64,000 nucleotides of DNA from Strigops habroptila (Eukaryota; Chordata; Aves; Psittaciformes; Psittacidae), in NCBI RefSeq assembly GCF_004027225.2, contig NC_044301.2, forward strand, positions 22,663,340-22,727,339. Direction: 5' to 3'. Below are positions 613-56,335 of this stretch, one piece after another. The notes below the pieces were generated by a model. The model had not been told where the DNA came from and did not search any database. It saw only the letters and a list, made by a program, of their open reading frames with translations. The translations under genes were made by a program, and so were the position numbers. Within the stretch, counting starts at the first letter, position 1. Every line of letters starts with the position of its first letter.

Positions 613-617
613 GGATC

Positions 618-700
618 CCTAATCTTTCCACACCCTTTTCTTTAGCCTTTTGGGTGATTTGTATCTTGCGGGTTGGTTCCTAATAAAGTCTGAGCTCGGG
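618..700 (+). pseudogene. IST1: Duplicated tail of IST1 3' UTR with poly(A) signal
   Basis: This is the mirror copy of 55,493-55,575, which continues without a break into the IST1 3' UTR on the other side. It carries AATAAA at 682-687, the probable IST1 polyadenylation signal. No IST1 coding sequence accompanies it, so it is a dead fragment brought along by the palindrome. That the AATAAA is IST1's real poly(A) site is inferred from position and spacing. Confidence 0.7.
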
Positions 701-936
701 AACAGTCGTACCTGGTGATACTTTTGCCGGGGGTCACACAGTGACGGAACTCTCCATGCTGCAGCCGCAGAGCGCCGGGGCCGGCAATGACTGCGGTGAC
801 CCCGCCCCTCATCAGCCTGCGGGTGGGGTTAGGGCGGGCTCGCTCCGGGTCCCCTCCTGTGTGCTGCCGCGCTGCTATTGGCTGGGAAGGTCCGCCCTCG
901 GCCAATCACCGGGGCGGGAATGGGGCGGTGGCCCGT
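700..936 (+). promoter_or_regulatory. DHODH: Relic of DHODH promoter (left copy)
   Basis: This is a GC- and CpG-rich stretch just upstream of the putative DHODH start codon. It has two CCAAT boxes in opposite orientations, ATTGG at 877-881 and CCAAT at 902-906, and no TATA box, as expected of a housekeeping promoter. It begins right after the IST1 poly(A) signal, so IST1 and DHODH were tightly packed tail to head. Whether it still drives transcription cannot be told from sequence. Confidence 0.55.
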
Positions 937-2653
937 ATGGAAGGGTGAGCGGTGGGGGGTGCTGGGTTGCTGCTGGGCTCGGTGCCGACGGCGGGCGACG
1001 AGTGGTTTTATGTGGTGGTGATGCCTAAGCTCTGTGCTCTCTCCTCTCTGAGGTAGCTCATGGGCTGGCCCTGCGCGCCGCCGTCCCGACGGCCCCGCTG
1101 GTGCGGCTTTGCGGCGGGCGAAGACCGGGGCCGGCAGGGGTGGTCGGAGGGGGCAACCAGGGCGCGGAGGGTGGTGGGGGGATCGCCGGTGGTGGTGATG
1201 TGGGTGGGTGGCTGAGTCTCAGGGTGACCTGCCGCGGTTCATGGGGTCTATGAGCTCTGCCAGCCCGCGGAGGATGCCCAACGGGGCTCCTGGGGTGGTC
1301 CTGGGTTCAGGAGATGTCCCCGGTAGGAGCTGTGGGTCCCCCGGGGCAGAAGGGACAGAGGGCAGGGGACCGGAGCTGCTCCTGCAGGGACTGGAGTGAG
1401 GCCCCAGCTCTGGTTCCCGGGGTCAGTGGGCTCTGGCTCCTGGCTGCCCGTGTGCGACCCAGCCCCTACCCTGCAGGAGGTGTGAGTGCTCGGGTAGTAG
1501 TTCTGCAACCTGGTGGGCCTGGTGGCTGGCTTCAACAAGCATGGCGAAGCTGTGGATGAGCTGTACAAGATGGGGTTTGGCTTTGTGGAAGTCGGGACTG
1601 TTACACCCCACTCCTAGGAGGGGAATTCCAGGCCCAGGGTGTTCCGGCTGGCAGAGGACAAGGTGGTTATTAACAGGTGGGACCCGAGGGTGCTGCTCTG
1701 TGGGGTCCCATGGGCTGCCTGCCCAGAGGTAGGTGTTTATTTGGGTGGTCCCAGTTCTGTGGTCTGTGCTGTGGTGGCTTTTGGGTTGGATGTGCTGAGC
1801 AGAACTGAGGGACCGTATGTCTCCCTCATGTTTCTCCTGTGTCCTGCTCAGGGCTTGTGGACACCAGCCTAGCCCTGAACCTTGCCTGTTCTGGTGCAGG
1901 TATGAATTCAATAGCCACGGCCATGCTGCAGTGGAGCACAGGCTGCAGGCCCACCAGGAGACACAGCTCTGGCTCGCTGGTGGTGAGACAAGCTTAAAAG
2001 CCTTTGCTCTTGGGGTCTGCAGGGTGGGTTTGGGGGTCTCCTAGGTAGGCCAGGAAAAGTGTGTAATGCCAGTGTCCAGGCACAGGAGGGCCCTGGCCAG
2101 AGCAAGGTGCACTCTGACAGCAGGATCCCTCTTGGGGCTGTAGCCTCTCCCCCTTGGGACTGTGACCAGGCACCTTTCTCCAGCCATTTTCTCTGTGACA
2201 GAGGCTATGTTTGCTGCTTTGGGTGGGACATGTCTGCTGAGACTAGCCAGAGCCGGGCAGTTTCTGAGAGCAGCCTCTGCTGGGTGGCCAGGCTCCAGTG
2301 GTGCTGGAGGTGCTGATTGGGACAGCTGTGGTGATGCTCCTGTGGCTGCAGGACAGTCCCAAGCCCACCCCCATAAAACACATGGGCTGCATATCCCCAT
2401 CTTGATTTTAGCTGGTCCTGGGGCCTCCTTTGTCAGGCGCTCTGGGCAGTGGGTGGTCCTGCTGCCCTGGTTCAGCCGTGTATGTGTTCCAGTGGGGATG
2501 CCCCTTGGAGTCAACCTGGGTAAGAACAAGAGCTCCACCAATGCTGCAGCTGACTACGTGGCTGGGGTCTGGATGCTGGGCCCTTTGGCTGACTACCTGG
2601 TTGTGAATGTGTCCAGCCCAAACACCCCAGGGCTGCAGTACCTGCAGGGCAAG
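937..2653 (+). pseudogene. DHODH: DHODH pseudogene, 5' half (left copy)
   Basis: These are first exons of dihydroorotate dehydrogenase, the FMN enzyme of the inner mitochondrial membrane that oxidises dihydroorotate to orotate in pyrimidine synthesis. A possible exon 1 is ATG at 937 with donor GTGAGC at 945. Exon 2 traces at 985-1,115 are out of frame (GDEWFY, then AHGLALR). The third exon (about 1,455-1,676) holds [21 protein letters not shown] and VFRLAEDKVVINR, with stops at 1,483, 1,495, 1,498 and 1,615. The fourth exon is 1,900-1,982 (YEFNSHGHAAVEHRLQA). The fifth, from about 2,490, has [10 protein letters not shown] and [14 protein letters not shown], including the catalytic-serine motif. 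It is cut after LQGK at 2,653 by an ERV LTR. The rest of that exon (KAELCDLLTK) is at 16,212-16,244 on the opposite strand. This copy cannot make enzyme. Confidence 0.95.
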
Positions 2654-3185
2654 CGCTCTGCTGACAGACAGGGTACACCACAAAGTGACCACACACTAGC
2701 TGTATAATATGCAGAGTTTATTAAACAAGCACACTAAAGCAAGCACACTAATGTGAATTAGGTAAATATCTCTCTATATATAGTGAATAAGTACAATAAA
2801 GCAAATCAGAGATATAGGTATATAAGTAAAGTACCAGAGAGAGTTAGCAATGCATTAAATCATTACCATATAGAAAGAACAGAGATTAAGAAGAAATACA
2901 TCACCAATTACCACTGAATCATCATCCAGGCCCACACTTCCAGCTGGGAAGCCCCGTTGCAGCCGATGCCAGGAGTCTCAGGTAATTGGGAAAATTCCTA
3001 CGCAGTGCGTCCACCCATAGGTGAGGCTTCTCCCATGGCCACAAGAGGGTCCTGCTGGCTTTATGCCAGATCTCTAATTGTTTACTCGTGGGACTGTGCA
3101 GTTTCTCATGGTCTTGCTGTTGTCCGTGCTGAGAGCATTGGCCTAGCGCCCCAGTGCAGCCAAGTATGAAGGTCATAGAACAGCT
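2654..3185 (-). mobile_element. ERV-A, downstream part of its 3' LTR (left copy)
   Basis: This matches the distal part of the ERV-A LTR at 16,245-16,975 in reverse orientation. On the DHODH side it is preceded by GCAAG (2,649-2,653), the 5-bp target-site duplication whose partner is at 16,240-16,244 (as CTTGC). On the other side it ends in CAGCT (3,181-3,185), the duplication made when ERV-B inserted into this LTR. It is a fossil fragment with the same history as the ERV-A body at 16,245-20,393. Confidence 0.92.
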
Positions 3186-3239
3186 TGTGGGATAATTACT
3201 GAATATGATTTTAGAAATTAAACTTATATTTAAAAATAT
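3186..3239 (+). mobile_element. ERV-B LTR, first ~55 bp (left copy)
   Basis: It starts TGTGGGATAATTACTGAA exactly where the ERV-B LTR starts (compare 34,611). It follows directly after the CAGCT target duplication in the ERV-A LTR. It is therefore the outer tip of the upstream ERV-B LTR, left behind when an inversion carried the rest of the element away. The match stops at about 3,237 and ERV-C leader sequence begins. Confidence 0.88.
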
Positions 3240-3372
3240 AATACCCCCACCACAGCTAGGGTAGCTCATAGGGCGCTTTATTACCAAAACACCCCCACCA
3301 CAGCTATCCCTGGTTAGCTCATAGGGCACTCTATATTAGAGTCCCTCCACCACTGCTAACCTCCTGTAAGAG
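3240..3372. repeat. ~50-bp tandem units in ERV-C leader
   Basis: About three imperfect units are each built on CCACCACAGCTA, then GTTAGCTCATAGGG, then a C-rich stretch. The same units occur at 500-612 and, mirrored, at 52,821-52,952. They are part of the untranslated leader of ERV-C. Confidence 0.7.
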
Positions 3373-4010
3373 CTCTTTTCCTTTACCGTTACACCTATAT
3401 AATATAATTCATAAAGAATACCTTATAAGAGATGGTCCTTGTCTGCTCCCGCACTGATCCGAGTGAGTCAAGGGGTCCCTCGGGGAAAAAATCGCCGGGG
3501 TACCCAAGGGAGCCCTGTTCTCAGTGGGTCCTGCAGCCGAGCAGAGAGGGTCCCATCTGGGGTGCCAGACTGATTCGTAGAACACGTTAAGAACTTGCCA
3601 ACAAAGTTTTAAGTTGACAAGCAGGTATTCTTTATTGTGGCACCAGGGTACACAGGGGATAGCTCCTCCTAGCGTGTCCCACCCAAGCATCAAACAAACT
3701 GTGATTATATCGTTGTTAATCATACATATTCATTACATTACATGCATATTTATGAAGTTACTTATACATGACATCATATTTCTAGATTATTCTTCCCGCA
3801 TGCGCACTCTATTATGGTAGCTGTCTTTGGGACCCCTGGTGGTCGTTTCTTCATCATCTTCCTCTTCATCACCCTGTCCTTTGGCTGAACTTCAAGTTTG
3901 GAAAGTCTTGTCATCAAGCCAACCGCCACCAGTCCAGTTCTGGCTGGTTATTGTGCACCTCGTTTCCGTTTCTTACTCCTTTCTATTGTTCAAAACCACC
4001 AAGCTCAACA
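3240..4010 (-). mobile_element. ERV-C fossil: LTR, primer site and leader (left copy)
   Basis: On the minus strand the LTR runs 4,010 to 3,571 (about 440 bp, TGTTGAGC...AATCA, with AATAAA inside). It is followed by a primer-binding-like TGGCACCCCAGATGGGAC and a leader that ends in roughly 50-bp tandem units (3,240-3,372). The leader overlaps by about 75-95 bp the ERV-C piece at 400-612, so the two pieces share sequence and did not come from a simple cut. It is probably class I, is broken, and has only its 5' end here. Confidence 0.8.
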
Positions 4011-6415
4011 TCCCATAACCAAGAACCAAAGCTGAGTTTACTTATTTACAAAAGATAATTTTTCATTTTGTATTTTCCTGTCTCATGTACCTCCTATATC
4101 TTCTCTCTTGGGCAATAAGGCACCATCTGGCCTACAATAGATCATCTCTAGAATGGCTGATTCCCTCAGGGACTGGATGCCTCTCTATCGTGGCCCATTT
4201 GGCTGAGCAACACATAACATCATCCTTAGAGGGATAATTTTCCTTCACAGCTGCCAAGAGCTGCCTCCAAAGGCTGAGGGCTTGTTTCTCTTTCGTAATT
4301 GCTTTCTCAATCCCCCCTTCCCTAGCAAGTGATCCCAGCTGCTTGGCTTCCCTACCTTCTAGTTCTTGACCATTGGCCCCATTGTCCCAGCATCGGAGCA
4401 ACCAGGCGATGATGTGCTCCCCTGGAAGACGGGTGAAATCTTTTCATATATTCCGCAGCTCAGTCGAGGTCCGGGATCGAGAAGTTACCTCTTCTTCTTT
4501 GTCTTCCTCTGATTCCTGTATTAATAATTCTTGTTCAGATGCTGGCCCCTCTAGTACACACATTGGGTCTTCATCTTTCTTCACTGCATGAGTTGCTCTT
4601 TGTGGCTCTCGTTTGCGTTTCCCCTTACTTATAGAGGCAACTGATATTGGCACGGATTTGTCATTTGGTTTATCTGCAATGTCTGTCACCGGGGTTGGAG
4701 TGGCTGCAGTGTCTTGCCACTAGGGTTGGAGCAGCTGCAGTGTCTTTCACTGGGGTTGGATTGGTTGCAACAACTGTTGTCAGAGTTGGAGTAGCTGCTG
4801 TGCTTGTTGCTGGGGATGGAGCAGCCACGTTGTCTGTTGCCTTGCCATCAGATCCAGAGACATCTTTTTCCTGCTCCTTACAGAACAAGGCTCTGTAGAT
4901 GAAGGCCAAGCCCCAGCACACTGAGGTGGTTTGTCCCTCTCTGGTATTGCCAGGATGACAGCACACCTTGTCCAAGTGTTTTACTAGTTTTTCTGGATTT
5001 TGCACTTGTTCAGGGGTGAAGTTCCAAAGCACTGGAGGGGCCCACTGGCCTAGATACTTGCCCATACTATCCCACACACCCTGCCACTCATAACTGTCCA
5101 GCCTCAGGGAAAATCTCTTGGTGGTCCTCTCAGATCGTTGTTTAACCTTAGACAAGACCCGAGCCCAACCCTGCTTAACTTTTGTGATCAGACGAAATAG
5201 AGTGTTCTCAAGGTGGTATGGCTGTGGGTAAAACACATGCAGAAGCATGCTGGTTCCCAGCAAAAAGAGTAGGCTGGTTTCAAGGGCGTTAAAAAGATAT
5301 TCAAAACCTTTACAATTCTCAAATGCTGCTGTAAAAAGCCTTGTGGGAGAGCAGAGGGTGTGAGGGAATGTCTCCTTCATAGGCTGACCCTCTGAGGGGA
5401 AAAAAGGAGGTATGATTGTTAATAATTCCCATTACATGCCTCCCAAAGTATAGAGGTGAAGGCCATGCTGAGAATGCATACCAGAGCAGTTTCATGATCA
5501 ATAATTCTATTGTATCACAAGCCATTATCATAAGGTACAACAAAACGAGAACCTTAGCCCAGGCCCCAAGCTGAGAAACACTAAAACAGCAAATACTGGC
5601 TGTAAGGAAGGTACAACATGCTGAAACTTTGAGACCAAGCGCAACAACACCGAGAGCAAATAAATCAACATTGCGACAAGTGACTATTAATCCAAAACAA
5701 TGAATGCTTATCACAAATATGATTAGACACACTCTGGTCAGATCTGTCATTATCTCAACCCTTCATGCCCCACGTTGGGCACCACAAAGGACTGTCGTGG
5801 TTTAAGCCCAGTCAATAACTCAGCATCACGCAGATGCTCACTCACTTCCCCCATTCTTCCCCCCCACTCCTGGAGCAATGGGAGGAGAATCGAAAGAATG
5901 TAAACCCCATGGGTTGAGATAAGAACAGTCCAATAACTAAAGTATAATACAAAACTACTACTACCACCAGCAATAATAATAATGATAAGGTAAATAACAA
6001 GGAGAGAGAATATAAAACTAAAAGGGGAAAAGGAAAAGAAAACAATAAACACAAGTGATGCACAATACAATTGCTCACCACCCACTGACCAATACCCAGC
6101 CCAACCCGAGCAGTGATCTTGGCCTTCCGGGTAACTCCTCCCAGTTTTTATACTAAGCATGACATGCTGTGGTATGGAATACCCCTTTGGCTCGTTTGGG
6201 TCAGGTGTCCTGTCTCTGCTTCCTCGCAGCTTCTTGTGCCCCTTCTCACTGGCAGAGCATGAGCGACAGAAAGTCCTTGGTTGGAGTAAACATTACTTAG
6301 CAACAACTAAAACATTGGTGTGTTATCAGCATTGTTCCCAGACTAAAGCCAAAACACAGCACTGCATCAGCTACTAGGAAGGAGAAAAATAACTGTTAGA
6401 GCTGAACCCAGGACA
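4011..6415 (-). mobile_element. ERV-D fossil (class II, ERVK-like): 5' LTR, primer site, gag (left copy)
   Basis: On the minus strand the LTR runs 6,415 to 5,793 (TGTCCTGGGTTCAG...ACGACA). It is followed by TGGTGCCCAACGTGGGGC, a primer site close to the tRNA-Lys type typical of class II elements. A leader and a gag-like region lie at about 5,750-4,130, with a membrane-rich start, a Pro/Ala/Thr-rich middle and a capsid-like end. The element stops where the ERV-C LTR begins. It interrupts DHX38. It is broken, with several breaks and no pol or env here. A solo LTR of the same family sits in an IST1 intron at 56,751-57,365. Confidence 0.85.
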
Positions 6416-6469
6416 ATGAGGCAATGCAATGAGCTGGACTGCCAGGATATCCTGTATCATACAAGTATG

Positions 6470-9400
6470 AACTCCTTATCGTCACTGTTCCCAATGCCTG
6501 TACTCTGCAAACTCCAAACAAAGGCTGTGAGGCACTACATAACATGTACAGCAGGGTAGTAAGCCAAAAGGTCACAGCATACCCTCTTAGGCTCCTTTTG
6601 CTCCCTGTGCTTATGCACCAATTGGCTGCCTTTCTGGGCTATGATGGACAAATCTGAGGTGGCATCCTTGACAGGGATGACTGGCTCTGGCTAGAGCAAA
6701 GAGGTATTGCTTCAGTACAAGAGCTCACACTTGTGGGGCTCCCTGCCATCAATGCCTTCAGCCACAGTCTCTACCTGCTTGGTGAAGACAATCCATTTAG
6801 TAAAGGCAGTACCAGGTTGTGCACCAACAAATGCACTTTAGCAGAGTTATCCTCCTCAAAATCTTCATCCACTTCAATCCAATGAACCACACCACTGGTC
6901 AGCATGTGATTCATCTCCCAGCACTTGTTATCCTATGGGAAATGACATATCAGAAAGTACATAGAAGCCCCAGAGAAAGCCCAAGAGATCACACACCAGT
7001 GCTCAGGGGTCTGGGCCCCACACTGACAATAAGATCAAACTGATGGTTCTAGCCTAGGGAGCCTGAAAGCAAGCACTAGGGAAGAAACAGTAACTGGAAG
7101 CAGCAGAGTACAGGAAACACAGACTGGCCATATGAAGCATATGGTCAACAGGACTGTCTCCAAGGAAATGCAGGACAGACATTGTCCACAAGGCCCCTAC
7201 CATACTCAGAACACACCAGGAAGCCGGGACATAATCCACTCGTGCTGAGGGCAGCAGCCCCCACCATCCACTGGGCCAACAGTAGATAACCCTCACAATG
7301 TAACTCACACCCCAGAACAGCAAGAGCACAGCCCTCCACATTCCTGCTGCCCTGGACACTGCGACCCACCACAGTCACTCCGGCTGCAAATTCTGCCCCA
7401 CACAGGAGACACAGGGTTGCACTGTCCAGGGGAACTTAACAATAGTTTCCCTGTGAGCTCTCACTCAGCCTGGGCCAGGACACACACTGTCCTTCCCCAC
7501 CTGACAGCAAGGGCTCAGCCTTCACTGCCAGCAAGATCATCTCTGGAGGGGCAGCAAACCCCACATGTTCAGAGCAGCCGACCCCACGTCTCGCCCCTAC
7601 CTCATTGATCTGCCGCCACTGTGCCGAGATGTGCTTCTGCCTCTGCTTGTGCAAGTGCTGCTCCTGCTTCTTCACGTACTCCTTGGAGGAGTAGGCCAAG
7701 GGGTTGTGAAACTCATCGTAGCCCTCGTCCATCATGTACCAGTCCCGGTCAGCTTGCTGGGAGGGGAGAGGTGCGGCCCTGAGCTCCGCCGGCCCCTGCA
7801 GCTCCCCAGGCCGGACCGGGTGCTCCCGCCGCTCCCCGTCTGGCCGCGAGGAGGAGCCCGCCCGCCGCCCTGCCCGGCACCCCCGAGCCCGCTGTCCACA
7901 CCGCTGCTCGCCAGCCTGCCAGCTCTCACCCCCTGGTCGCCTTCCCACTGCTGCCGCTCCTCCTCCGTCTCGAAGGCAATGCCCTCCTCCTCGTTGGCGC
8001 GCCGCCCTGGAGGGGCGAGCTGGTCAGTCCGGGCGCCGGCCCCGATGCTCCAGAGGAAATCCTACAGCACCCAACCTTGTGCTGCTCAGGGGAAGGGGAT
8101 CCCACCAGCGCCCAGCCCAGGCAGCTCAGCCCAGGCTCCTCACCTCTCCCTCTGGATAGCTGTGGTGTGGCCCCAAGGTGTCTCCAGTCATCAGCCCACT
8201 TGTATTTGTACGATGGGGTGGGCAATGGCATCTTATCTGAGTACCTGCTCCTCACAGACCTGAAAAACAGCACGAGGGAGGAACTGGTGCCTACAGCCAG
8301 ATGCAACTCTTACACACACCCTCCCCTTTCTGCAGCTCAACAGTTCGGCCCCAGGCACTGATACCTGTCCCGGTCTCTCCAGTCTGTGTCCCGCTGTGAT
8401 GACGGCCAGTGGCTGCACTCCAAGTCTCAACAGGAAGGCATGGGTGAGGGAGATTCCCACTGTGAGTGGTGGGCACTGCTGTAGCCACTATCATCTTCCT
8501 CCCAGCTGGAGCAAGATGGCATGGCTGTGTCTAGCAGAGAAGATAGAGTTTGGCACCTGATGTTCGAACAGTGACCCCCCAGTGACCAGGAACCACCATA
8601 TACCTTCTAGCAAGGAGCACAGAGAGAGGGTACCCATCTGCCTGCCCCCCCCCCCCCAAGAGAAGGGGCTGGCAATTCCAAGGAAAATTATCAAATGACC
8701 AAATTTCTATCACACAGACCCAGAACAGACCCCACTGCGCAGGGATCAGCCAGATGTTCACACACACGGCTGGTAGATTGTTCCCAGACCCAGGTCAAGC
8801 TAGGAGTTTTATGTTTGCCCTAACCACGAACATTAAAATATACAGGCTTTATGACCCACACTTGTCCTGACAAAAACAGCAGGAAACAACAACGACGAAC
8901 AAGTCCCTTCCTGTTTCGTCTCACACAAGAACTCTAATGGGTCCCACTCCTACCTTTGGGCCAATGTCTGGGACTCTCCGGTTTGCTCCTCCTGCTGCTG
9001 CGCTCCAATGAGCCATCTCTCTCTGACCTACTGCTGTAATGACTTCTGTCCTGCTCCTCTGCAAAAGGAAAGTGAGATCAGGTGCCCAGCACGCAAAGAG
9101 GTTCCCAAGTCTGCTGCAGAAACCACCACAAACATTAGCTAAGGACTGCAAACAGGCTGAGAGATGAGCCCAAGCCCTAAGCAGGAAGAGGCACAAAGGT
9201 CTTTAAGCAGTTACCACGTCCTGTTTACGATCATGGTCCCAATCCCTACCGCATTCCTTCTTTCACTCCTTCTCCTCCTTGGAGGAGGCAAAGACACCAT
9301 GGTCCTGATGCTCCCTTTCCGCTGCTGGCTGCGTTCCCAAAACTCCTCACTGACACCCCCTGTGTAGGAAGGTGTTTCCACATGGATAGAACGGTAATGC

Positions 9401-10213
9401 CTGGAAAGGCAGAGCAGAGAGAATAAAAGCTCAAGAGTGCTGAGGAATACCTGGCTACCTCTGCTATAGCAGAAGGTTATGGCTAAAAGTGCTCTTTCCA
9501 TTCTTTGCTAACAGCCCACCAGGTCTGCTGATGCTCTCACATGCACTTCTGAGCAGGCCACTGCCTCCAGGCATCAGGAAGCAGGGAGTCTCACAACTGG
9601 AATGGCTGGCATTTGCAGGCCTAACAGCGCCTAACAGCACTCTTACCCGTAACGCCCCAGGGAAGGGCGCCAGCAAAATAGCTTTGCCAGAGCTCCTCAG
9701 AACTACAGAGGTGCCCCTAGTCCTACCCCGAAGAGATCCCCAGCCTTGCCTGTCACAGGGCGCAGCCCCGCGGACGCTGACGGTTCTCACGCCCCATGCT
9801 CACGCTCGTTTCCCCGGTGGGGATCCAACGGCCTTGGAGCACCTGGTGCCACCGACAGCACCAGCACCACCCCGCAGACCCGACCTGTCCTCGCGAGCGC
9901 CACAGCTGCTCTGAACGGTCTCCTCATCCCCGTCCTCCTCGGGCTGCTCGCCTCGTCGCGGCCCTCTTCCCAGTCCTTGTAGGAAGAGACCCGGGGCCGC
10001 TTCCCACCAGCCGCCTCCTCCTTGCGCTCCTGCTGCTTCTAGGCCACCAGCACGTCCAGGCCCAGCAAGGAGGCCCCGTGGTGTCGGCGTCTTGAAGACG
10101 TGCTGCTCAGCAGCAGCGCTACCCTGCCGCAGCACCAGCCCGTCGGCCTTGGCGCCCGGGCTCGTCCCCGCCAGCCGGTGCAGCAACTCCTCACTCGCCT
10201 CGGCCATGGCCAT
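6470..10213 (-). pseudogene. DHX38: DHX38 (PRP16) pseudogene, 5' exons only (left copy)
   Basis: This is the mirror copy of the DHX38 remnant at 45,975-49,726, read right to left from the ATG at 10,213. It keeps the arginine/serine-rich N-terminal exons of the spliceosomal helicase and ends at the ERV-D insertion, so the whole helicase core is missing. It shares the in-frame stops of the right copy. It also has one extra G in the first exon (GGGGCC near 10,074, against GGGCC in the mirror), which shifts the frame about 45 codons in; that difference is private to this arm. Exon-by-exon details are given for the right copy. Confidence 0.93.
8649..8660. repeat. Poly-C tract in DHX38 intron (left copy)
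   Basis: A run of about a dozen C is mirrored by a G run near 47,533. It is a mononucleotide tract prone to length error and has no apparent function. Confidence 0.8.
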
Positions 10214-10599
10214 CGCCGCCGAGCGCTACCGCGCCGCGCAGGGAGGGCGGGTAGGCGCTAGCGGGGGAGTAAGCGCCGGAGCTCTGCCACAGCCCCGACC
10301 CGGCTTGCGGTTGCCTCAGCGACCGTAAACCGGCTCCCCAAACGCTGCCATGGCCGCCCTACAGTGCTCCGCGAGAAAAGCCACTCTAGCCACTTGCATC
10401 ATAGACACAGAGGCCGGAACCTATAGGAATGACAACCACCATAGAGTCCAGCGCCATTAGATAAGATGCGCTACCGATCCCTCGTCAGACTTCCGGCGTG
10501 GGGAAACGGTGTGGGGTCACGTGGACGCCGGGGGACTTCCGGGTCTGGAGGGCGCGGCCGGAAGCGAGCGGGCACGGCACCGGGACAGCCCGGCACGGG
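10214..10599 (-). promoter_or_regulatory. DHX38: Relic of DHX38 CpG promoter (left copy)
   Basis: This GC-rich, CpG-rich region lies between the DHX38 start codon and the CR1 fragment. It has several ETS-type CCGGAA/TTCCGG sites and a CACGTG E-box. It mirrors 45,590-45,974. In mammals this promoter is shared with TXNL4B on the other strand, but no TXNL4B exon is recognisable here. Confidence 0.55.
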
Positions 10600-10770
10600 A
10601 GGGAATCATGAACCAACCGGGTGGGAAAGAGCTTCAGATCATCAAATACAACTTTACCCCAGCACTGCCAAGTTCACCGCTAAACCCCGTCACTAAGGGC
10701 CTTGTCTACACGGTTTGTGAACACTTCCAGGGATGGTGATTCCACCACTGCCCTGGCAGCCTGTCCCAAT
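10600..10770 (-). mobile_element. CR1 LINE 3' end (left copy)
   Basis: On the minus strand this reads like the 3' tail of avian CR1 (core motifs CAGTGGTGGAATCACCATCC, then TTGGCAGTG, then a degraded TTGGACTCGATGATCT). It has no reading frame of its own. It directly abuts the haptoglobin exon and marks where the haptoglobin beta chain stops. It is 5'-truncated, as most CR1 copies are. Confidence 0.85.
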
Positions 10771-45415: not shown

Positions 45416-45586
45416 TTGGGACAGGCTGCCCAGGGCAGTGGTGGAATCACCATCCCTGGAAGTGTTCACAAACCGTGTAGACAAGGCCCTTAGTGACGGG
45501 GTTTAGCGGTGAACTTGGCAGTGCTGGGGTAAAGGTTGTATTTGATGATCTGAAGCTCTTTCCCACCCGGTTGGTTCATGATTCCC
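45416..45586 (+). mobile_element. CR1 LINE 3' end (right copy)
   Basis: This is a 5'-truncated CR1 tail (CAGGGCAGTGGTGGAATCAC, then TTGGCAGTGCTGGGGTAAAG, then TTTGATGATCTGAAGCTC). It directly follows the haptoglobin beta-chain remnant and separates it from the DHX38 promoter. The usual terminal ATTCTATG repeats are worn away. Confidence 0.85.
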
Positions 45587-45589
45587 TCC

Positions 45590-45974
45590 CCGTGCCGGGC
45601 TGTCCCGGTGCCGTGCCCGCTCGCTTCCGGCCGCGCCCTCCAGACCCGGAAGTCCCCCGGCGTCCACGTGACCCCACACCGTTTCCCCACGCCGGAAGTC
45701 TGACGAGGGATCGGTAGCGCATCTTATCTAATGGCGCTGGACTCTATGGTGGTTGTCATTCCTATAGGTTCCGGCCTCTGTGTCTATGATGCAAGTGGCT
45801 AGAGTGGCTTTTCTCGCGGAGCACTGTAGGGCGGCCATGGCAGCGTTTGGGGAGCCGGTTTACGGTCGCTGAGGCAACCGCAAGCCGGGTCGGGGCTGTG
45901 GCAGAGCTCCGGCGCTTACTCCCCCGCTAGCGCCTACCCGCCCTCCCTGCGCGGCGCGGTAGCGCTCGGCGGCG
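45590..45974 (+). promoter_or_regulatory. DHX38: Relic of DHX38 CpG promoter (right copy)
   Basis: This CpG-rich block has ETS-type sites at 45,624-45,630, 45,646-45,652 and 45,692-45,698 and a CACGTG E-box at 45,665-45,670. It ends just before the DHX38 start codon at 45,975. It is a TATA-less housekeeping promoter by appearance. Activity cannot be judged from sequence. Confidence 0.55.
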
Positions 45975-48900
45975 ATGGCCATGGCCGAGGCGAGTGAGGA
46001 GTTGCTGCACCGGCTGGCGGGGACGAGCCCGGGCGCCAAGGCCGACGGGCTGGTGCTGCGGCAGGGTAGCGCTGCTGCTGAGCAGCACGTCTTCAAGACG
46101 CCGACACCACGGGCCTCCTTGCTGGGCCTGGACGTGCTGGTGGCCTAGAAGCAGCAGGAGCGCAAGGAGGAGGCGGCTGGTGGGAAGCGGCCCCGGGTCT
46201 CTTCCTACAAGGACTGGGAAGAGGGCCGCGACGAGGCGAGCAGCCCCGAGGAGGACGGGGATGAGGAGACCGTTCAGAGCAGCTGTGGCGCTCGCGAGGA
46301 CAGGTCGGGTCTGCGGGGTGGTGCTGGTGCTGTCGGTGGCACCAGGTGCTCCAAGGCCGTTGGATCCCCACCGGGGAAACGAGCGTGAGCATGGGGCGTG
46401 AGAACCGTCAGCGTCCGCGGGGCTGCGCCCTGTGACAGGCAAGGCTGGGGATCTCTTCGGGGTAGGACTAGGGGCACCTCTGTAGTTCTGAGGAGCTCTG
46501 GCAAAGCTATTTTGCTGGCGCCCTCCCTGGGGCGTTACGGGTAAGAGTGCTGTTAGGCGCTGTTAGGCCTGCAAATGCCAGCCATTCCAGTTGTGAGACT
46601 CCCTGCTTCCTGATGCCTGGAGGCAGTGGCCTGCTCAGAAGTGCATGTGAGAGCATCAGCAGACCTGGTGGGCTGTTAGCAAAGAATGGAAAGAGCACTT
46701 TTAGCCATAACCTTCTGCTATAGCAGAGGTAGCCAGGTATTCCTCAGCACTCTTGAGCTTTTATTCTCTCTGCTCTGCCTTTCCAGGCATTACCGTTCTA
46801 TCCATGTGGAAACACCTTCCTACACAGGGGGTGTCAGTGAGGAGTTTTGGGAACGCAGCCAGCAGCGGGAAAGGGAGCATCAGGACCATGGTGTCTTTGC
46901 CTCCTCCAAGGAGGAGAAGGAGTGAAAGAAGGAATGCGGTAGGGATTGGGACCATGATCGTAAACAGGACCGTGGTAACTGCTTAAAGACCTTTGTGCCT
47001 CTTCCTGCTTAGGGCTTGGGCTCATCTCTCAGCCTGTTTGCAGTCCTTAGCTAATGTTTGTGGTGGTTTCTGCAGCAGACTTGGGAACCTCTTTGCGTGC
47101 TGGGCACCTGATCTCACTTTCCTTTTGCAGAGGAGCAGGACAGAAGTCATTACAGCAGTAGGTCAGAGAGAGATGGCTCATTGGAGCGCAGCAGCAGGAG
47201 GAGCAAACCGGAGAGTCCCAGACATTGGCCCAAAGGTAGGAGTGGGACCCATTAGAGTTCTTGTGTGAGACGAAACAGGAAGGGACTTGTTCGTCGTTGT
47301 TGTTTCCTGCTGTTTTTGTCAGGACAAGTGTGGGTCATAAAGCCTGTATATTTTAATGTTCGTGGTTAGGGCAAACATAAAACTCCTAGCTTGACCTGGG
47401 TCTGGGAACAATCTACCAGCCGTGTGTGTGAACATCTGGCTGATCCCTGCGCAGTGGGGTCTGTTCTGGGTCTGTGTGATAGAAATTTGGTCATTTGATA
47501 ATTTTCCTTGGAATTGCCAGCCCCTTCTCTTGGGGGGGGGGGGGGCAGGCAGATGGGTACCCTCTCTCTGTGCTCCTTGCTAGAAGGTATATGGTGGTTC
47601 CTGGTCACTGGGGGGGTCACTGTTCGAACATCAGGTGCCAAACTCTATCTTCTCTGCTAGACACAGCCATGCCATCTTGCTCCAGCTGGGAGGAAGATGA
47701 TAGTGGCTACAGCAGTGCCCACCACTCACAGTGGGAATCTCCCTCACCCATGCCTTCCTGTTGAGACTTGGAGTGCAGCCACTGGCCGTCATCACAGCGG
47801 GACACAGACTGGAGAGACCGGGACAGGTATCAGTGCCTGGGGCCGAACTGTTGAGCTGCAGAAAGGGGAGGGTGTGTGTAAGAGTTGCATCTGGCTGTAG
47901 GCACCAGTTCCTCCCTCGTGCTGTTTTTCAGGTCTGTGAGGAGCAGGTACTCAGATAAGATGCCATTGCCCACCCCATCGTACAAATACAAGTGGGCTGA
48001 TGACTGGAGACACCTTGGGGCCACACCACAGCTATCCAGAGGGAGAGGTGAGGAGCCTGGGCTGAGCTGCCTGGGCTGGGCGCTGGTGGGATCCCCTTCC
48101 CCTGAGCAGCACAAGGTTGGGTGCTGTAGGATTTCCTCTGGAGCATCGGGGCCGGCGCCCGGACTGACCAGCTCGCCCCTCCAGGGCGGCGCGCCAACGA
48201 GGAGGAGGGCATTGCCTTCGAGACGGAGGAGGAGCGGCAGCAGTGGGAAGGCGACCAGGGGGTGAGAGCTGGCAGGCTGGCGAGCAGCGGTGTGGACAGC
48301 GGGCTCGGGGGTGCCGGGCAGGGCGGCGGGCGGGCTCCTCCTCGCGGCCAGACGGGGAGCGGCGGGAGCACCCGGTCCGGCCTGGGGAGCTGCAGGGGCC
48401 GGCGGAGCTCAGGGCCGCACCTCTCCCCTCCCAGCAAGCTGACCGGGACTGGTACATGATGGACGAGGGCTACGATGAGTTTCACAACCCCTTGGCCTAC
48501 TCCTCCAAGGAGTACGTGAAGAAGCAGGAGCAGCACTTGCACAAGCAGAGGCAGAAGCACATCTCGGCACAGTGGCGGCAGATCAATGAGGTAGGGGCGA
48601 GACGTGGGGTCGGCTGCTCTGAACATGTGGGGTTTGCTGCCCCTCCAGAGATGATCTTGCTGGCAGTGAAGGCTGAGCCCTTGCTGTCAGGTGGGGAAGG
48701 ACAGTGTGTGTCCTGGCCCAGGCTGAGTGAGAGCTCACAGGGAAACTATTGTTAAGTTCCCCTGGACAGTGCAACCCTGTGTCTCCTGTGTGGGGCAGAA
48801 TTTGCAGCCGGAGTGACTGTGGTGGGTCGCAGTGTCCAGGGCAGCAGGAATGTGGAGGGCTGTGCTCTTGCTGTTCTGGGGTGTGAGTTACATTGTGAGG

Positions 48901-49726
48901 GTTATCTACTGTTGGCCCAGTGGATGGTGGGGGCTGCTGCCCTCAGCACGAGTGGGATTATGTCCCGGCTTCCTGGTGTGTTCTGAGTATGGTAGGGGCC
49001 TTGTGGACAATGTCTGTCCTGCATTTCCTTGGAGACAGTCCTGTTGACCATATGCTTCATATGGCCAGTCTGTGTTTCCTGTACTCTGCTGCTTCCAGTT
49101 ACTGTTTCTTCCCTAGTGCTTGCTTTCAGGCTCCCTAGGCTAGAACCATCAGTTTGATCTTATTGTCAGTGTGGGGCCCAGACCCCTGAGCACTGGTGTG
49201 TGATCTCTTGGGCTTTCTCTGGGGCTTCTATGTACTTTCTGATATGTCATTTCCCATAGGATAACAAGTGCTGGGAGATGAATCACATGCTGACCAGTGG
49301 TGTGGTTCATTGGATTGAAGTGGATGAAGATTTTGAGGAGGATAACTCTGCTAAAGTGCATTTGTTGGTGCACAACCTGGTACTGCCTTTACTAAATGGA
49401 TTGTCTTCACCAAGCAGGTAGAGACTGTGGCTGAAGGCATTGATGGCAGGGAGCCCCACAAGTGTGAGCTCTTGTACTGAAGCAATACCTCTTTGCTCTA
49501 GCCAGAGCCAGTCATCCCTGTCAAGGATGCCACCTCAGATTTGTCCATCATAGCCCAGAAAGGCAGCCAATTGGTGCATAAGCACAGGGAGCAAAAGGAG
49601 CCTAAGAGGGTATGCTGTGACCTTTTGGCTTACTACCCTGCTGTACATGTTATGTAGTGCCTCACAGCCTTTGTTTGGAGTTTGCAGAGTACAGGCATTG
49701 GGAACAGTGACGATAAGGAGTTCATA
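45975..49726 (+). pseudogene. DHX38: DHX38 (PRP16) pseudogene, 5' exons only (right copy)
   Basis: DHX38/PRP16 is the DEAH helicase that remodels the spliceosome for the second splicing step. Exons seen: 45,975-46,302 (GSAAAEQHVFKTPTP, SSYKDWEE; TAG at 46,146); about 46,787-46,975 ([21 protein letters not shown] at 46,923); about 47,131-47,235; 47,658-47,826 ([19 protein letters not shown] at 47,762); 47,931-48,047 ([19 protein letters not shown]); about 48,183-48,259; 48,435-48,590 ([20 protein letters not shown]); 49,260-49,420 ([19 protein letters not shown]; 4-bp deletion near its end); 49,503-49,609 ([17 protein letters not shown]); and a trace at 49,688-49,726 (HWEQ, then stops). ERV-D follows at 49,777. 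No helicase motif is present. It is certainly dead. Confidence 0.95.
47533..47546. repeat. Poly-G tract in DHX38 intron (right copy)
   Basis: A run of about a dozen G mirrors the C tract at 8,649-8,660. It is a mononucleotide run with no apparent function. Confidence 0.8.
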
Positions 49727-49776
49727 CTTGTATGATACAGGATATCCTGGCAGTCCAGCTCATTGCATTGCCTCAT

Positions 49777-52183
49777 TGTCCTGGGTTCAGCTCTAACAGT
49801 TATTTTTCTCCTTCCTAGTAGCTGATGCAGTGCTGTGTTTTGGCTTTAGTCTGGGAACAATGCTGATAACACACCAATGTTTTAGTTGTTGCTAAGTAAT
49901 GTTTACTCCAACCAAGGACTTTTCTGTCGCTCATGCTCTGCCAGTGAGAAGGGGCACAAGAAGCTGCGAGGAAGCAGAGACAGGACACCTGACCCAAACG
50001 AGCCAAAGGGGTATTCCATACCACAGCATGTCATGCTTAGTATAAAAACTGGGAGGAGTTACCCGGAAGGCCAAGATCACTGCTCGGGTTGGGCTGGGTA
50101 TTGGTCAGTGGGTGGTGAGCAATTGTATTGTGCATCACTTGTGTTTATTGTTTTCTTTTCCTTTTCCCCTTTTAGTTTTATATTCTCTCTCCTTGTTATT
50201 TACCTTATCATTATTATTATTGCTGGTGGTAGTAGTAGTTTTGTATTATACTTTAGTTATTGGACTGTTCTTATCTCAACCCATGGGGTTTACATTCTTT
50301 CGATTCTCCTCCCCATTGCTCCAGGAGTGGGGGGGAAGAATGGGGGAAGTGAGTGAGCATCTGCGTGATGCTGAGTTATTGACTGGGCTTAAACCACGAC
50401 AGTCCTTTGTGGTGCCCAACGTGGGGCATGAAGGGTTGAGATAATGACAGATCTGACCAGAGTGTGTCTAATCATATTTGTGATAAGCATTCATTGTTTT
50501 GGATTAATAGTCACTTGTCGCAATGTTGATTTATTTGCTCTCGGTGTTGTTGCGCTTGGTCTCAAAGTTTCAGCATGTTGTACCTTCCTTACAGCCAGTA
50601 TTTGCTGTTTTAGTGTTTCTCAGCTTGGGGCCTGGGCTAAGGTTCTCGTTTTGTTGTACCTTATGATAATGGCTTGTGATACAATAGAATTATTGATCAT
50701 GAAACTGCTCTGGTATGCATTCTCAGCATGGCCTTCACCTCTATACTTTGGGAGGCATGTAATGGGAATTATTAACAATCATACCTCCTTTTTTCCCCTC
50801 AGAGGGTCAGCCTATGAAGGAGACATTCCCTCACACCCTCTGCTCTCCCACAAGGCTTTTTACAGCAGCATTTGAGAATTGTAAAGGTTTTGAATATCTT
50901 TTTAACGCCCTTGAAACCAGCCTACTCTTTTTGCTGGGAACCAGCATGCTTCTGCATGTGTTTTACCCACAGCCATACCACCTTGAGAACACTCTATTTC
51001 GTCTGATCACAAAAGTTAAGCAGGGTTGGGCTCGGGTCTTGTCTAAGGTTAAACAACGATCTGAGAGGACCACCAAGAGATTTTCCCTGAGGCTGGACAG
51101 TTATGAGTGGCAGGGTGTGTGGGATAGTATGGGCAAGTATCTAGGCCAGTGGGCCCCTCCAGTGCTTTGGAACTTCACCCCTGAACAAGTGCAAAATCCA
51201 GAAAAACTAGTAAAACACTTGGACAAGGTGTGCTGTCATCCTGGCAATACCAGAGAGGGACAAACCACCTCAGTGTGCTGGGGCTTGGCCTTCATCTACA
51301 GAGCCTTGTTCTGTAAGGAGCAGGAAAAAGATGTCTCTGGATCTGATGGCAAGGCAACAGACAACGTGGCTGCTCCATCCCCAGCAACAAGCACAGCAGC
51401 TACTCCAACTCTGACAACAGTTGTTGCAACCAATCCAACCCCAGTGAAAGACACTGCAGCTGCTCCAACCCTAGTGGCAAGACACTGCAGCCACTCCAAC
51501 CCCGGTGACAGACATTGCAGATAAACCAAATGACAAATCCGTGCCAATATCAGTTGCCTCTATAAGTAAGGGGAAACGCAAACGAGAGCCACAAAGAGCA
51601 ACTCATGCAGTGAAGAAAGATGAAGACCCAATGTGTGTACTAGAGGGGCCAGCATCTGAACAAGAATTATTAATACAGGAATCAGAGGAAGACAAAGAAG
51701 AAGAGGTAACTTCTCGATCCCGGACCTCGACTGAGCTGCGGAATATATGAAAAGATTTCACCCGTCTTCCAGGGGAGCACATCATCGCCTGGTTGCTCCG
51801 ATGCTGGGACAATGGGGCCAATGGTCAAGAACTAGAAGGTAGGGAAGCCAAGCAGCTGGGATCACTTGCTAGGGAAGGGGGGATTGAGAAAGCAATTACG
51901 AAAGAGAAACAAGCCCTCAGCCTTTGGAGGCAGCTCTTGGCAGCTGTGAAGGAAAATTATCCCTCTAAGGATGATGTTATGTGTTGCTCAGCCAAATGGG
52001 CCACGATAGAGAGGCATCCAGTCCCTGAGGGAATCAGCCATTCTAGAGATGATCTATTGTAGGCCAGATGGTGCCTTATTGCCCAAGAGAGAAGATATAG
52101 GAGGTACATGAGACAGGAAAATACAAAATGAAAAATTATCTTTTGTAAATAAGTAAACTCAGCTTTGGTTCTTGGTTATGGGA
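49777..52183 (+). mobile_element. ERV-D fossil (class II, ERVK-like): 5' LTR, primer site, gag (right copy)
   Basis: The LTR is 49,777-50,401 (about 625 bp, TGTCCTGGG...ACGACA). A tRNA-Lys-like primer site follows at 50,410-50,427, then a leader and gag-like region to about 52,060. It breaks DHX38 just after the trace of its eleventh exon. The element ends where the ERV-C LTR begins (52,184). It is broken, with several breaks; pol, env and a 3' LTR are not in the window. Confidence 0.85.
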
Positions 52184-52952
52184 TGTTGAGCTTGGTGGTT
52201 TTGAACAATAGAAAGGAGTAAGAAACGGAAACGAGGTGCACAATAACCAGCCAGAACTGGACTGGTGGCGGTTGGCTTGATGACAAGACTTTCCAAACTT
52301 GAAGTTCAGCCAAAGGACAGGGTGATGAAGAGGAAGATGATGAAGAAACGACCACCAGGGGTCCCAAAGACAGCTACCATAATAGAGTGCGCATGCGGGA
52401 AGAATAATCTAGAAATATGATGTCATGTATAAGTAACTTCATAAATATGCATGTAATGTAATGAATATGTATGATTAACAACGATATAATCACAGTTTGT
52501 TTGATGCTTGGGTGGGACACGCTAGGAGGAGCTATCCCCTGTGTACCCTGGTGCCACAATAAAGAATACCTGCTTGTCAACTTAAAACTTTGTTGGCAAG
52601 TTCTTAACGTGTTCTACGAATCAGTCTGGCACCCCAGATGGGACCCTCTCTGCTCGGCTGCAGGACCCACTGAGAACAGGGCTCCCTTGGGTACCCCGGC
52701 GATTTTTTCCCCGAGGGACCCCTTGACTCACTCGGATCAGTGCGGGAGCAGACAAGGACCATCTCTTATAAGGTATTCTTTATGAATTATATTATATAGG
52801 TGTAACGGTAAAGGAAAAGAGCTCTTACAGGAGGTTAGCAGTGGTGGAGGGACTCTAATATAGAGTGCCCTATGAGCTAACCAGGGATAGCTGTGGTGGG
52901 GGTGTTTTGGTAATAAAGCGCCCTATGAGCTACCCTAGCTGTGGTGGGGGTA
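52184..52952 (+). mobile_element. ERV-C fossil: LTR, primer site, leader (right copy)
   Basis: The LTR is 52,184-52,623, the primer-site-like TGGCACCCCAGATGGGAC starts at 52,627, and the leader ends in roughly 50-bp tandem units (52,821-52,952). It is cut at about 52,952, where the tip of an ERV-B LTR follows in reverse. Only the 5' end is present. It is probably class I and is broken. Confidence 0.8.
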
Positions 52953-53007
52953 TTATATTTTTAAATATAAGTTTAATTTCTAAATCATATTCAGTAATTA
53001 TCCCACA
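52953..53007 (-). mobile_element. ERV-B LTR, first ~55 bp (right copy)
   Basis: Reverse complement of the start of the ERV-B LTR (ending TTATCCCACA at 53,007). It sits next to AGCTG (53,008-53,012), the ERV-B target duplication in the ERV-A LTR. Confidence 0.88.
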
Positions 53008-53539
53008 AGCTGTTCTATGACCTTCATACTTGGCTGCACTGGGGCGCTAGGCCAATGCTCTCAGCACGGACAACAGCAAGACCATGAGAAACTGCACAGT
53101 CCCACGAGTAAACAATTAGAGATCTGGCATAAAGCCAGCAGGACCCTCTTGTGGCCATGGGAGAAGCCTCACCTATGGGTGGACGCACTGCGTAGGAATT
53201 TTCCCAATTACCTGAGACTCCTGGCATCGGCTGCAACGGGGCTTCCCAGCTGGAAGTGTGGGCCTGGATGATGATTCAGTGGTAATTGGTGATGTATTTC
53301 TTCTTAATCTCTGTTCTTTCTATATGGTAATGATTTAATGCATTGCTAACTCTCTCTGGTACTTTACTTATATACCTATATCTCTGATTTGCTTTATTGT
53401 ACTTATTCACTATATATAGAGAGATATTTACCTAATTCACATTAGTGTGCTTGCTTTAGTGTGCTTGTTTAATAAACTCTGCATATTATACAGCTAGTGT
53501 GTGGTCACTTTGTGGTGTACCCTGTCTGTCAGCAGAGCG
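53008..53539 (+). mobile_element. ERV-A, downstream part of its 3' LTR (right copy)
   Basis: This is the mirror of 2,654-3,185. It ends CAGCAGAGCG at 53,539, followed by CTTGC (53,540-53,544), the target duplication at the cut DHODH exon. Confidence 0.92.
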
Positions 53540-55256
53540 CTTGCCCTGCAGGTACTGCAGCCCTGGGGTGTTTGGGCTGGACACATTCACAACCAGGTAG
53601 TCAGCCAAAGGGCCCAGCATCCAGACCCCAGCCACGTAGTCAGCTGCAGCATTGGTGGAGCTCTTGTTCTTACCCAGGTTGACTCCAAGGGGCATCCCCA
53701 CTGGAACACATACACGGCTGAACCAGGGCAGCAGGACCACCCACTGCCCAGAGCGCCTGACAAAGGAGGCCCCAGGACCAGCTAAAATCAAGATGGGGAT
53801 ATGCAGCCCATGTGTTTTATGGGGGTGGGCTTGGGACTGTCCTGCAGCCACAGGAGCATCACCACAGCTGTCCCAATCAGCACCTCCAGCACCACTGGAG
53901 CCTGGCCACCCAGCAGAGGCTGCTCTCAGAAACTGCCCGGCTCTGGCTAGTCTCAGCAGACATGTCCCACCCAAAGCAGCAAACATAGCCTCTGTCACAG
54001 AGAAAATGGCTGGAGAAAGGTGCCTGGTCACAGTCCCAAGGGGGAGAGGCTACAGCCCCAAGAGGGATCCTGCTGTCAGAGTGCACCTTGCTCTGGCCAG
54101 GGCCCTCCTGTGCCTGGACACTGGCATTACACACTTTTCCTGGCCTACCTAGGAGACCCCCAAACCCACCCTGCAGACCCCAAGAGCAAAGGCTTTTAAG
54201 CTTGTCTCACCACCAGCGAGCCAGAGCTGTGTCTCCTGGTGGGCCTGCAGCCTGTGCTCCACTGCAGCATGGCCGTGGCTATTGAATTCATACCTGCACC
54301 AGAACAGGCAAGGTTCAGGGCTAGGCTGGTGTCCACAAGCCCTGAGCAGGACACAGGAGAAACATGAGGGAGACATACGGTCCCTCAGTTCTGCTCAGCA
54401 CATCCAACCCAAAAGCCACCACAGCACAGACCACAGAACTGGGACCACCCAAATAAACACCTACCTCTGGGCAGGCAGCCCATGGGACCCCACAGAGCAG
54501 CACCCTCGGGTCCCACCTGTTAATAACCACCTTGTCCTCTGCCAGCCGGAACACCCTGGGCCTGGAATTCCCCTCCTAGGAGTGGGGTGTAACAGTCCCG
54601 ACTTCCACAAAGCCAAACCCCATCTTGTACAGCTCATCCACAGCTTCGCCATGCTTGTTGAAGCCAGCCACCAGGCCCACCAGGTTGCAGAACTACTACC
54701 CGAGCACTCACACCTCCTGCAGGGTAGGGGCTGGGTCGCACACGGGCAGCCAGGAGCCAGAGCCCACTGACCCCGGGAACCAGAGCTGGGGCCTCACTCC
54801 AGTCCCTGCAGGAGCAGCTCCGGTCCCCTGCCCTCTGTCCCTTCTGCCCCGGGGGACCCACAGCTCCTACCGGGGACATCTCCTGAACCCAGGACCACCC
54901 CAGGAGCCCCGTTGGGCATCCTCCGCGGGCTGGCAGAGCTCATAGACCCCATGAACCGCGGCAGGTCACCCTGAGACTCAGCCACCCACCCACATCACCA
55001 CCACCGGCGATCCCCCCACCACCCTCCGCGCCCTGGTTGCCCCCTCCGACCACCCCTGCCGGCCCCGGTCTTCGCCCGCCGCAAAGCCGCACCAGCGGGG
55101 CCGTCGGGACGGCGGCGCGCAGGGCCAGCCCATGAGCTACCTCAGAGAGGAGAGAGCACAGAGCTTAGGCATCACCACCACATAAAACCACTCGTCGCCC
55201 GCCGTCGGCACCGAGCCCAGCAGCAACCCAGCACCCCCCACCGCTCACCCTTCCAT
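53540..55256 (-). pseudogene. DHODH: DHODH pseudogene, 5' half (right copy, ancestral position)
   Basis: This is the mirror of 937-2,653, read leftwards from the putative ATG at 55,256-55,254. Because it lies tail-to-head next to the single-copy IST1 and reads the same way, this is the copy still in its original place. It has the same stops and exon 2 damage as the left copy. Exon 5, with the catalytic-serine motif NVSSPNT, is cut after LQGK at 53,540 by ERV-A. The remaining exons are 12-14 kb away in the opposite orientation (39,931-41,461). Confidence 0.95.
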
Positions 55257-55492
55257 ACGGGCCACCGCCCCATTCCCGCCCCGGTGATTGGCCGAGGGCG
55301 GACCTTCCCAGCCAATAGCAGCGCGGCAGCACACAGGAGGGGACCCGGAGCGAGCCCGCCCTAACCCCACCCGCAGGCTGATGAGGGGCGGGGTCACCGC
55401 AGTCATTGCCGGCCCCGGCGCTCTGCGGCTGCAGCATGGAGAGTTCCGTCACTGTGTGACCCCCGGCAAAAGTATCACCAGGTACGACTGTT
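55257..55492 (-). promoter_or_regulatory. DHODH: Relic of DHODH promoter (right copy)
   Basis: This is a CpG-rich, TATA-less region with CCAAT at 55,312-55,316 and ATTGG at 55,287-55,291. It lies immediately downstream of the IST1 poly(A) signal, showing how tightly the two genes were packed. Confidence 0.55.
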
Positions 55493-56335
55493 CCCGAGCT
55501 CAGACTTTATTAGGAACCAACCCGCAAGATACAAATCACCCAAAAGGCTAAAGAAAAGGGTGTGGAAAGATTAGGTACAGAGAAGCCACAGAGCACGTTG
55601 CAAGTGGCACAGGTACAGCCAGCAGCTCCCCACCGTGCTCGGGGTGAGCAGAGCTGTTGCCACACGTCCTGTCAGCGTCCCCTTGGCCTCTGTTCAACCT
55701 GCACGTTTAGTGCCCAACGAGCAGCAGCAGGCACCCGTGAGTCCCTCTGCCTGGCCCACTCACGGTGCCAGGGGGTTCAGGACAGGGAACCGCACAGTGG
55801 CATCTCCCGTGGCCAGGGACCAGAGCCCTGCACAAAGAACATGGCCAAGACCACGGGGAGTCCCCAAGCATCCAGCAGGAGTGAAAGAGGACATCAGGCC
55901 AACTGTGAGCAGATACAGCTGGAGCCAAGGAGGTGGCAGATAGGTACAACCTTGAAGGGCAATGCTGCATCTCCTCACGCATAACTGCATTCCCCACCTC
56001 AGCCCTGGTTAGCTGGAAGTCTTACCAAAGCGACTTAATCGCCTTAATGCCCTTGAGACCAAAGGGCAAGCACAGCTTCTCTGTACAGCTACCCAGACAG
56101 ACAGGGTCTGCTCCCTGCTCCAGTCTCACCAGATTCCCTGCAGCTCACCTCCTGAAGCAACAAAGGTCAGGACAGTAGCAGCACTGGGTTTAAGTACAGC
56201 AGGAAGAGAGCTCAAAAAGCAGAGAGCATTCATTTGAAGTTAATACAGGAAACCAATTTCAAGGGGAGTTGGTTTCAGAGAGAAGAGCCATCATATCTCC
56301 TGCCCCTCAACCTTGCAGTTACAGCCCAGTCGGTT
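55493..56335 (-). other. IST1: IST1 3' UTR and poly(A) signal
   Basis: On the minus strand about 840 bases follow the IST1 stop codon down to AATAAA (TTTATT on the plus strand at 55,506-55,511). No other gene is seen here. The palindrome boundary (about 55,575) lies inside this UTR, so its last 80 or so bases exist twice in the window. UTR extent is inferred from the poly(A) signal only. Confidence 0.65.

Follow-up and report, generated by a model that had tools for sequence, protein, structure and literature searches.

Large palindromes of Y and W chromosomes are usually discussed as devices for the protection of genes, and a 2010 study is said, by its title, to concern an avian W palindrome with gene conversion. 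On the W chromosome of the Pekin duck, 38 palindromes of 15.2-345.5 kb have been described, which are built of nested repeats, amount to 22% of the assembled W and are reported to hold no robustly expressed genes (PMC7787181). For human Y palindromes such as P6, conversion tracts up to >9 kb have been described (PMC3723533), and fold-back inverted duplications of patients are reported to combine a spacer (minimum 766 bp) with 2-8 bp of microhomology (PMC3907307). Here we analyze a 55-kb palindrome in the parrot Strigops habroptila. It lies in a stretch of 64,000 bp, hereafter the window (positions 22,663,340-22,727,339 of contig NC_044301.2, designated C25), on what is putatively the W chromosome. 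With a probability of about two in three, this palindrome is real, arose by microhomology-mediated template switching and then underwent arm-to-arm homogenization.

The parrot palindrome resembles those described from the duck in being avian, located on a putative W, composed of repeats, tens of kb long and devoid of any working gene that could be found. Its 27-kb arms of endogenous retroviruses (ERVs) and pseudogenes fall within the range of the repeat-rich, 15-345 kb duck arms without working genes, and it is a member of this gene-poor kind. It differs from the duck set as reported in being a single parrot case, with breakpoints placed against a homologous contig (C26), dead genes that can be named and arms that alternate between identical and divergent parts. 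It shares large inverted repeats and near-identical arms with human P6; unlike P6 as described, no open gene was found in its arms and no GC bias was detected. Like the patient fold-backs of PMC3907307, it combines a one-sided spacer at the joint with a short inverted microhomology, but according to that account its spacer is shorter, its arms are far shorter and it lies in place within the chromosome instead of at a terminal deletion. A literature search joining parrot, W chromosome and palindrome turned up duck and canary work only, and the paper on parrot neo-sex chromosomes (PMC8854603) contains no word beginning with 'palindrom'.

Alignment of the window with its own reverse complement (BLASTN) gave a single long inverted match, 618-27,877 against 55,575-28,293, with 99.619% identity over 27,292 columns (63 mismatches, 37 gap openings). 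Two inverted 27-kb arms, more than 99% identical, enclose a spacer of 415 bp. This confirms the near-perfect 55-kb palindrome announced in a preliminary description of the same DNA, whose coordinates were correct to 1-2 bases. The window is free of N, and the arm ends are sharp, identity dropping to 17 of 60 positions just outside and 20 of 60 just inside the called ends. The parts of the palindrome and its left border are as follows.

1..612, minus strand: left flank, the 5' part of another ERV, with a gag-like reading recognized by eye and leader repeats.
613..617, no strand assigned: left outer joint, 5 bp between the ERV leader and the arm.
618..27877, plus strand: left arm, 27,260 bp, the duplicated and inverted copy; C26 lacks a counterpart of its outer edge and has one of the mirror edge.
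20391..28292, minus strand: left-arm ERV, its 5' long terminal repeat (LTR) cut by the centre joint.
27878..28292, minus strand: spacer, 415 bp, holding the 5' end of gag, the leader and an LTR piece of 75 bp, all from the left-arm ERV; it runs on into the left arm but not into the right.
28293..28298, no strand assigned: centre joint, 6 bp common to both joined partners (inverted microhomology).
28293..55575, minus strand: right arm, 27,283 bp, the native copy adjoining the gene IST1.

When the assembly (1,148,577,936 bp in 89 contigs) was searched with an outer-arm probe (6,500-11,700), full-length matches were confined to the two arms; the rest of the best 40 of 3,505 candidates were the diverged partner on C26 and short repeat matches, and further outer-arm copies elsewhere in the genome were rejected on this basis.

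The chromosomal setting could be compared between C25 (37.4 Mb, ~3% of the assembly) and C26 (101.9 Mb). IST1 DNA matches these two contigs only, the partner on C26 being 85% identical. IST1 and the other host genes found here, DHODH, HP and DHX38, are presumably located on chicken chromosome 11. C25 is rich in ERVs: it accounts for 56 of 79 match rows of a probe across the palindrome centre (3 of them the window itself; best 40 of 317 candidates) and for 39 of 51 rows of a second-ERV probe (2 of them the window itself; best 40 of 56 candidates). Gene order as on chromosome 11, an identity of 85% with the C26 partner and decayed genes are all found here, as in the parrot neo-W stratum S4. This stratum of the neo-W and neo-Z is reported to have formed from chromosome 11, with Z-W identity of ~86% (PMC8854603), and avian W chromosomes have been described as refuges of ERVs (PMC8310711). 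The C25 segment would fit the W copy, and C26 the Z copy, of this stratum. The sex linkage of the amplicon proposed earlier would have indirect support in the ERV-rich C25 and in the ~85% gametologous C26 with open genes.

Both borders of the palindrome could be placed against C26. On the right, positions 55,485-56,750 align unbroken to C26 1,206,664-1,205,431 across the edge at 55,575, which is therefore native, and 27 kb of C25 in this flank are collinear with C26 from 1,194,437 down to 1,170,001. On the left, an anchor at C25 22,657,512-22,659,674 matches C26 1,229,850-1,228,675 in the same relative orientation and in the correct order (304 columns at 81.9%, 882 at 76.4%); an 841-bp segment taken from it matches nothing else and is single-copy. 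The sequence between this anchor and the right flank has no N. The palindrome occupies the place of C26 1,206.7-1,228.7 kb. Since both flanks are in place and collinear, without a gap between them, a contig-end fold-back artefact is argued against, and such a chimera was rejected, its far flank being native, single-copy and collinear with C26. The C26 stretch 1,219,281-1,228,675, including the second half of DHX38, is unmatched in the window, in 50 kb to its left and in 30 kb to its right.

The centre of the palindrome is a clean junction of the 5' end of the left-arm ERV, head to head, with the gag of the right-arm ERV. A reading frame (27,123-28,439, minus strand) crosses the spacer, and the last 75 bp of the spacer, 28,218-28,292, are identical to the LTR at 20,391-20,465. 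Matches to other ERV copies extend up to 28,298 on the left side and begin at 28,293 on the right, so that the 6 common bp are visible from either side, LTR context at the joint being read in 6 of 7 fetched copies; no other match spans the joint among the best 40 of 317 candidates. As in fold-back products, the spacer is continuous with one arm and the inverted microhomology falls within 2-8 bp (415 bp and 6 bp, respectively). At the left outer joint, the ERV leader at 535-612 is identical to 3,240-3,317. Positions 613-626 form a 14-bp perfect palindrome, TTAGGGATCCCTAA, in which two telomere-like hexamers stand head to head around AT, with a BamHI site within; this is probably due to chance. 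The gag of the first ERV (27729-27884, 28291-28441) has a 42-bp tandem repeat encoding a coiled coil, with Pfam matches to coiled-coil families only, below cut-off.

Differences between the arms are distributed unevenly. The preliminary description gave a few differences per kb and missed this unevenness: the outer 16,605 columns have no substitution and 27 one-base indels, whereas 63 substitutions and 10 indels fall in the inner 10,687 (Fisher p = 1.8e-16). From the inner background rate ~30 outer substitutions would be expected, and finding none has a probability of ~1e-13 under equal rates. It follows that either the outer arm was homogenized after divergence of the inner one, or the assembler wrote one consensus twice.

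618..17199, no strand assigned: outer arm, host-derived; differs from the other arm by 27 one-base indels and no substitution.
17289..18126, no strand assigned: divergent island 1, in gag of the second ERV; the arms differ by 33 substitutions, with private changes in each.
26066..26836, no strand assigned: divergent island 2, in gag/pro of the first ERV; the arms differ by 15 substitutions, with private changes in each.

All inner substitutions lie in multi-copy ERV sequence; 52 of 63 are transitions and 31 of 63 are of CpG type. Apart from the islands, 14 fall in 18,200-26,000 and one past 26,900. Island 1 was polarized with four relatives, 91-92% identical: the derived state is clear for 14 changes of the left arm and 9 of the right, a further 9 being weak and 1 unclear, and 20 states are common to both arms against all four relatives. 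Its nearest non-arm copy is 91% identical (best 40 of 56 candidates). For island 2, 30 ERV pieces were fetched and 29 aligned, 22-29 covering each site; of 16 sites in 25,985-27,500, 5 have a state restricted to the left arm and 2 one restricted to the right, and at 9 the minority state recurs in one or more other copies. A signal of four ERV states common to the arms and absent from 7 copies was discarded, their number dropping to 0 against the 29 aligned copies. Because each arm has private island changes and no assembled donor above 91% was found for island 1, two real loci are the most likely source of the inner arms. A search for GC-biased conversion in the arms gave a negative result. 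With a Z-W distance of ~0.15-0.19 and the date given in PMC8854603, the divergence of island 1 would tentatively suggest an age of millions of years if it was never converted, and the outer arm would have been converted last less than ~0.05 million years ago.

Several observations weigh against a real palindrome homogenized between its arms. Among the outer indels, 26 of 27 are located in runs of two or more, and in 23 of 27 it is the left arm that lacks the base. Comparison with C26 could score 9 of them, and C26 has the right-arm state in 7 and the left-arm state in 2 (18 were unscorable). These one-sided indels look like errors of the left-arm consensus and lower the trust in exact identity; an assembler writing one consensus twice could also account for the outer identity. 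They bring in the alternative that survives best, an assembly artefact in which the right arm was falsely copied to give the left one, from chimeric or error-rich reads, with insertion of this copy between the left flank and the true arm. Outer differences limited to one-base indels, mostly missing in the left arm, are reminiscent of error-bearing 'homotype' false duplications as described in PMC9516828, and an assembly gap lies 8.6 kb from the palindrome (204 N at 22,655,177-22,655,380, beyond the left anchor; the sole gap in the 60 kb fetched on that side). Error-type indels in one copy and a nearby gap are both likenesses to that class; unlike the cases described there, the flanks are single-copy and collinear on both sides, the sequence between the copies is gap-free and both copies have private substitutions. 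Such an artefact needs two chimeric joints without long homology, followed by a return to the correct single-copy flank in the correct orientation. A hemizygous W, moreover, has no alleles to account for the 63 inner substitutions, the states of which are largely absent from other copies. We consider this explanation unlikely. An allelic ('heterotype') duplication is rejected if C25 is the W, the W being hemizygous.

Ranking second, and unlikely as well, is a real and very recent inverted duplication without arm-to-arm conversion, in which the inner differences would come from conversion by other ERVs and the outer indels would be errors. This would agree with the complete lack of substitutions in the 16,605 outer columns, with the restriction of every substitution to multi-copy ERV sequence and with three right-arm states of island 2 that are common to one other copy. 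It is opposed by island 1, for which no assembled donor is suitable (the nearest non-arm match, among the best 40 of 56 candidates, being the 91% copy), and it leaves the 14 background substitutions between the islands to be explained. As to the very recent fold-back duplication suggested by the preliminary description, the centre joint with its 6-bp microhomology does resemble a fold-back or template switch, and the term 'very recent' is not favoured, the islands being ~2-4% divergent with arm-private changes. A broken end folding back into a dicentric chromosome, with subsequent breakage and rejoining (an inverted duplication in the sense of Hermetz et al.), is very improbable, as the far side continues in native order, unlike a terminal deletion or translocation, and the 415-bp spacer is below the 766 bp minimum reported in PMC3907307.

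Host genes were searched by tblastn in the window and in the C26 stretch, with the following result.

1477..2668, plus strand: DHODH pseudogene, exons for human amino acids 79-231, with stops; mirror copy 53,525-54,716.
6580..10183, minus strand: DHX38 (PRP16) pseudogene, human amino acids 10-463 only; mirror copy 46,005-49,612.
10778..11666, minus strand: haptoglobin (HP) pseudogene; mirror copy 44,510-45,407.
14914..15766, minus strand: DHODH pseudogene, exons for human amino acids 235-378, inverted; mirror copy 40,410-41,262.
56339..62905, minus strand: IST1, with open exons, in the native right flank; ~760 bp separate its stop from the palindrome.

On C26, the exons of IST1, DHODH, HP and DHX38 are all open; the arm copies of DHODH and HP are broken and that of DHX38 is truncated. 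The arms yielded no open host gene, in agreement with the pseudogenes and ERVs previously noted there. Functional, sex-expressed genes of the kind that define amplicons were not recovered, the arm copies of DHODH, HP and DHX38 being broken or truncated. TXNL4B gave no tblastn match in the window or the C26 stretch, and tRNAs and Rfam matches in the window numbered 0. The haptoglobin gene of the putative Z (C26:1212958-1214358) is open, its beta chain being stop-free over human amino acids 147-404; haptoglobin is not known from chicken and other neognath birds. The W-type IST1 is open, yet residues are changed at positions seemingly conserved relative to human, possibly reflecting relaxed selection. 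A ~0.6-kb dispersed repeat is present in both arms (5792-6415, 49777-50402), in the right flank (56751-57366) and in several nearby C25 and C26 copies. A diverged tandem satellite lies ~25 kb to the left of the window, past the assembly gap (C25 about 22,637,800-22,640,900).

The arms also preserve an older rearrangement, bounded by two LTR copies.

2657..3185, no strand assigned: LTR copy, one end of the older inversion; mirror copy 53,008-53,536.
16403..16972, no strand assigned: LTR copy, other end of the older inversion; mirror copy 39,202-39,772.

These LTRs are mutually inverted (5 mismatches and 4 gap openings in 570 columns), and the interval between them, 3,186-16,402, runs opposite to C26 1,219,281-1,208,667, an inversion that split DHODH on the putative W. 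Recombination between the two inverted LTRs would be its simplest cause. It is older than the palindrome, because both arms carry it.

The origin of the palindrome may be proposed as follows, the two joints being read in the sequence and the order of events and the enzymes being those that we infer. From a native order of IST1, then DHODH, HP and DHX38, the older inversion between inverted LTR copies split DHODH and ERVs moved in, as the C26 comparison shows. During replication or repair, synthesis would then have jumped from a far-side ERV into the tail of IST1, and ~27 kb would have been copied in inverted order up to the 5' LTR of an ERV. There, a fold-back over ~415 bp, primed by the 6-bp microhomology, would have resumed the native order towards IST1. 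The intervening stretch with the second half of DHX38 would have been lost at palindrome formation or earlier. As the chromosome continues in native order, such a two-step template switch in place would fit the layout better than a terminal fold-back. To judge from the mosaic of differences, later gene conversion may have maintained identity over the outer 16.6 kb, which are single-copy, whereas parts of the inner arm, borne by ERVs, would have escaped it and diverged.

In the parrot palindrome DHODH, HP and DHX38 are broken, their copies on the putative Z being open, and comparison with C26 locates the two breakpoints with single-base precision. To the duck-type kind it adds such base-level breakpoints relative to a homologue, an ERV at a joint and a mosaic in which the single-copy stretches of the arms stand apart from those borne by ERVs. 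The joints, together with this mosaic, provide a test bed for dating and for telling conversion from assembly collapse. If the palindrome is real, an ERV supplied a joint for a W palindrome. As no open host gene lies in the arms, homogenization would be a by-product of their geometry and not a means of gene upkeep. We propose, tentatively and as a doubtful generalization, that a W palindrome without genes can be homogenized over at least 16 kb by conversion without selection on genes. Its single-copy parts would become identical, its ERV parts would diverge through exchange with dozens of relatives or through lack of exchange, and geometry and ERV content alone would set the identity map. A real palindrome of this kind would suggest that homogenization can go on without a gene to protect.
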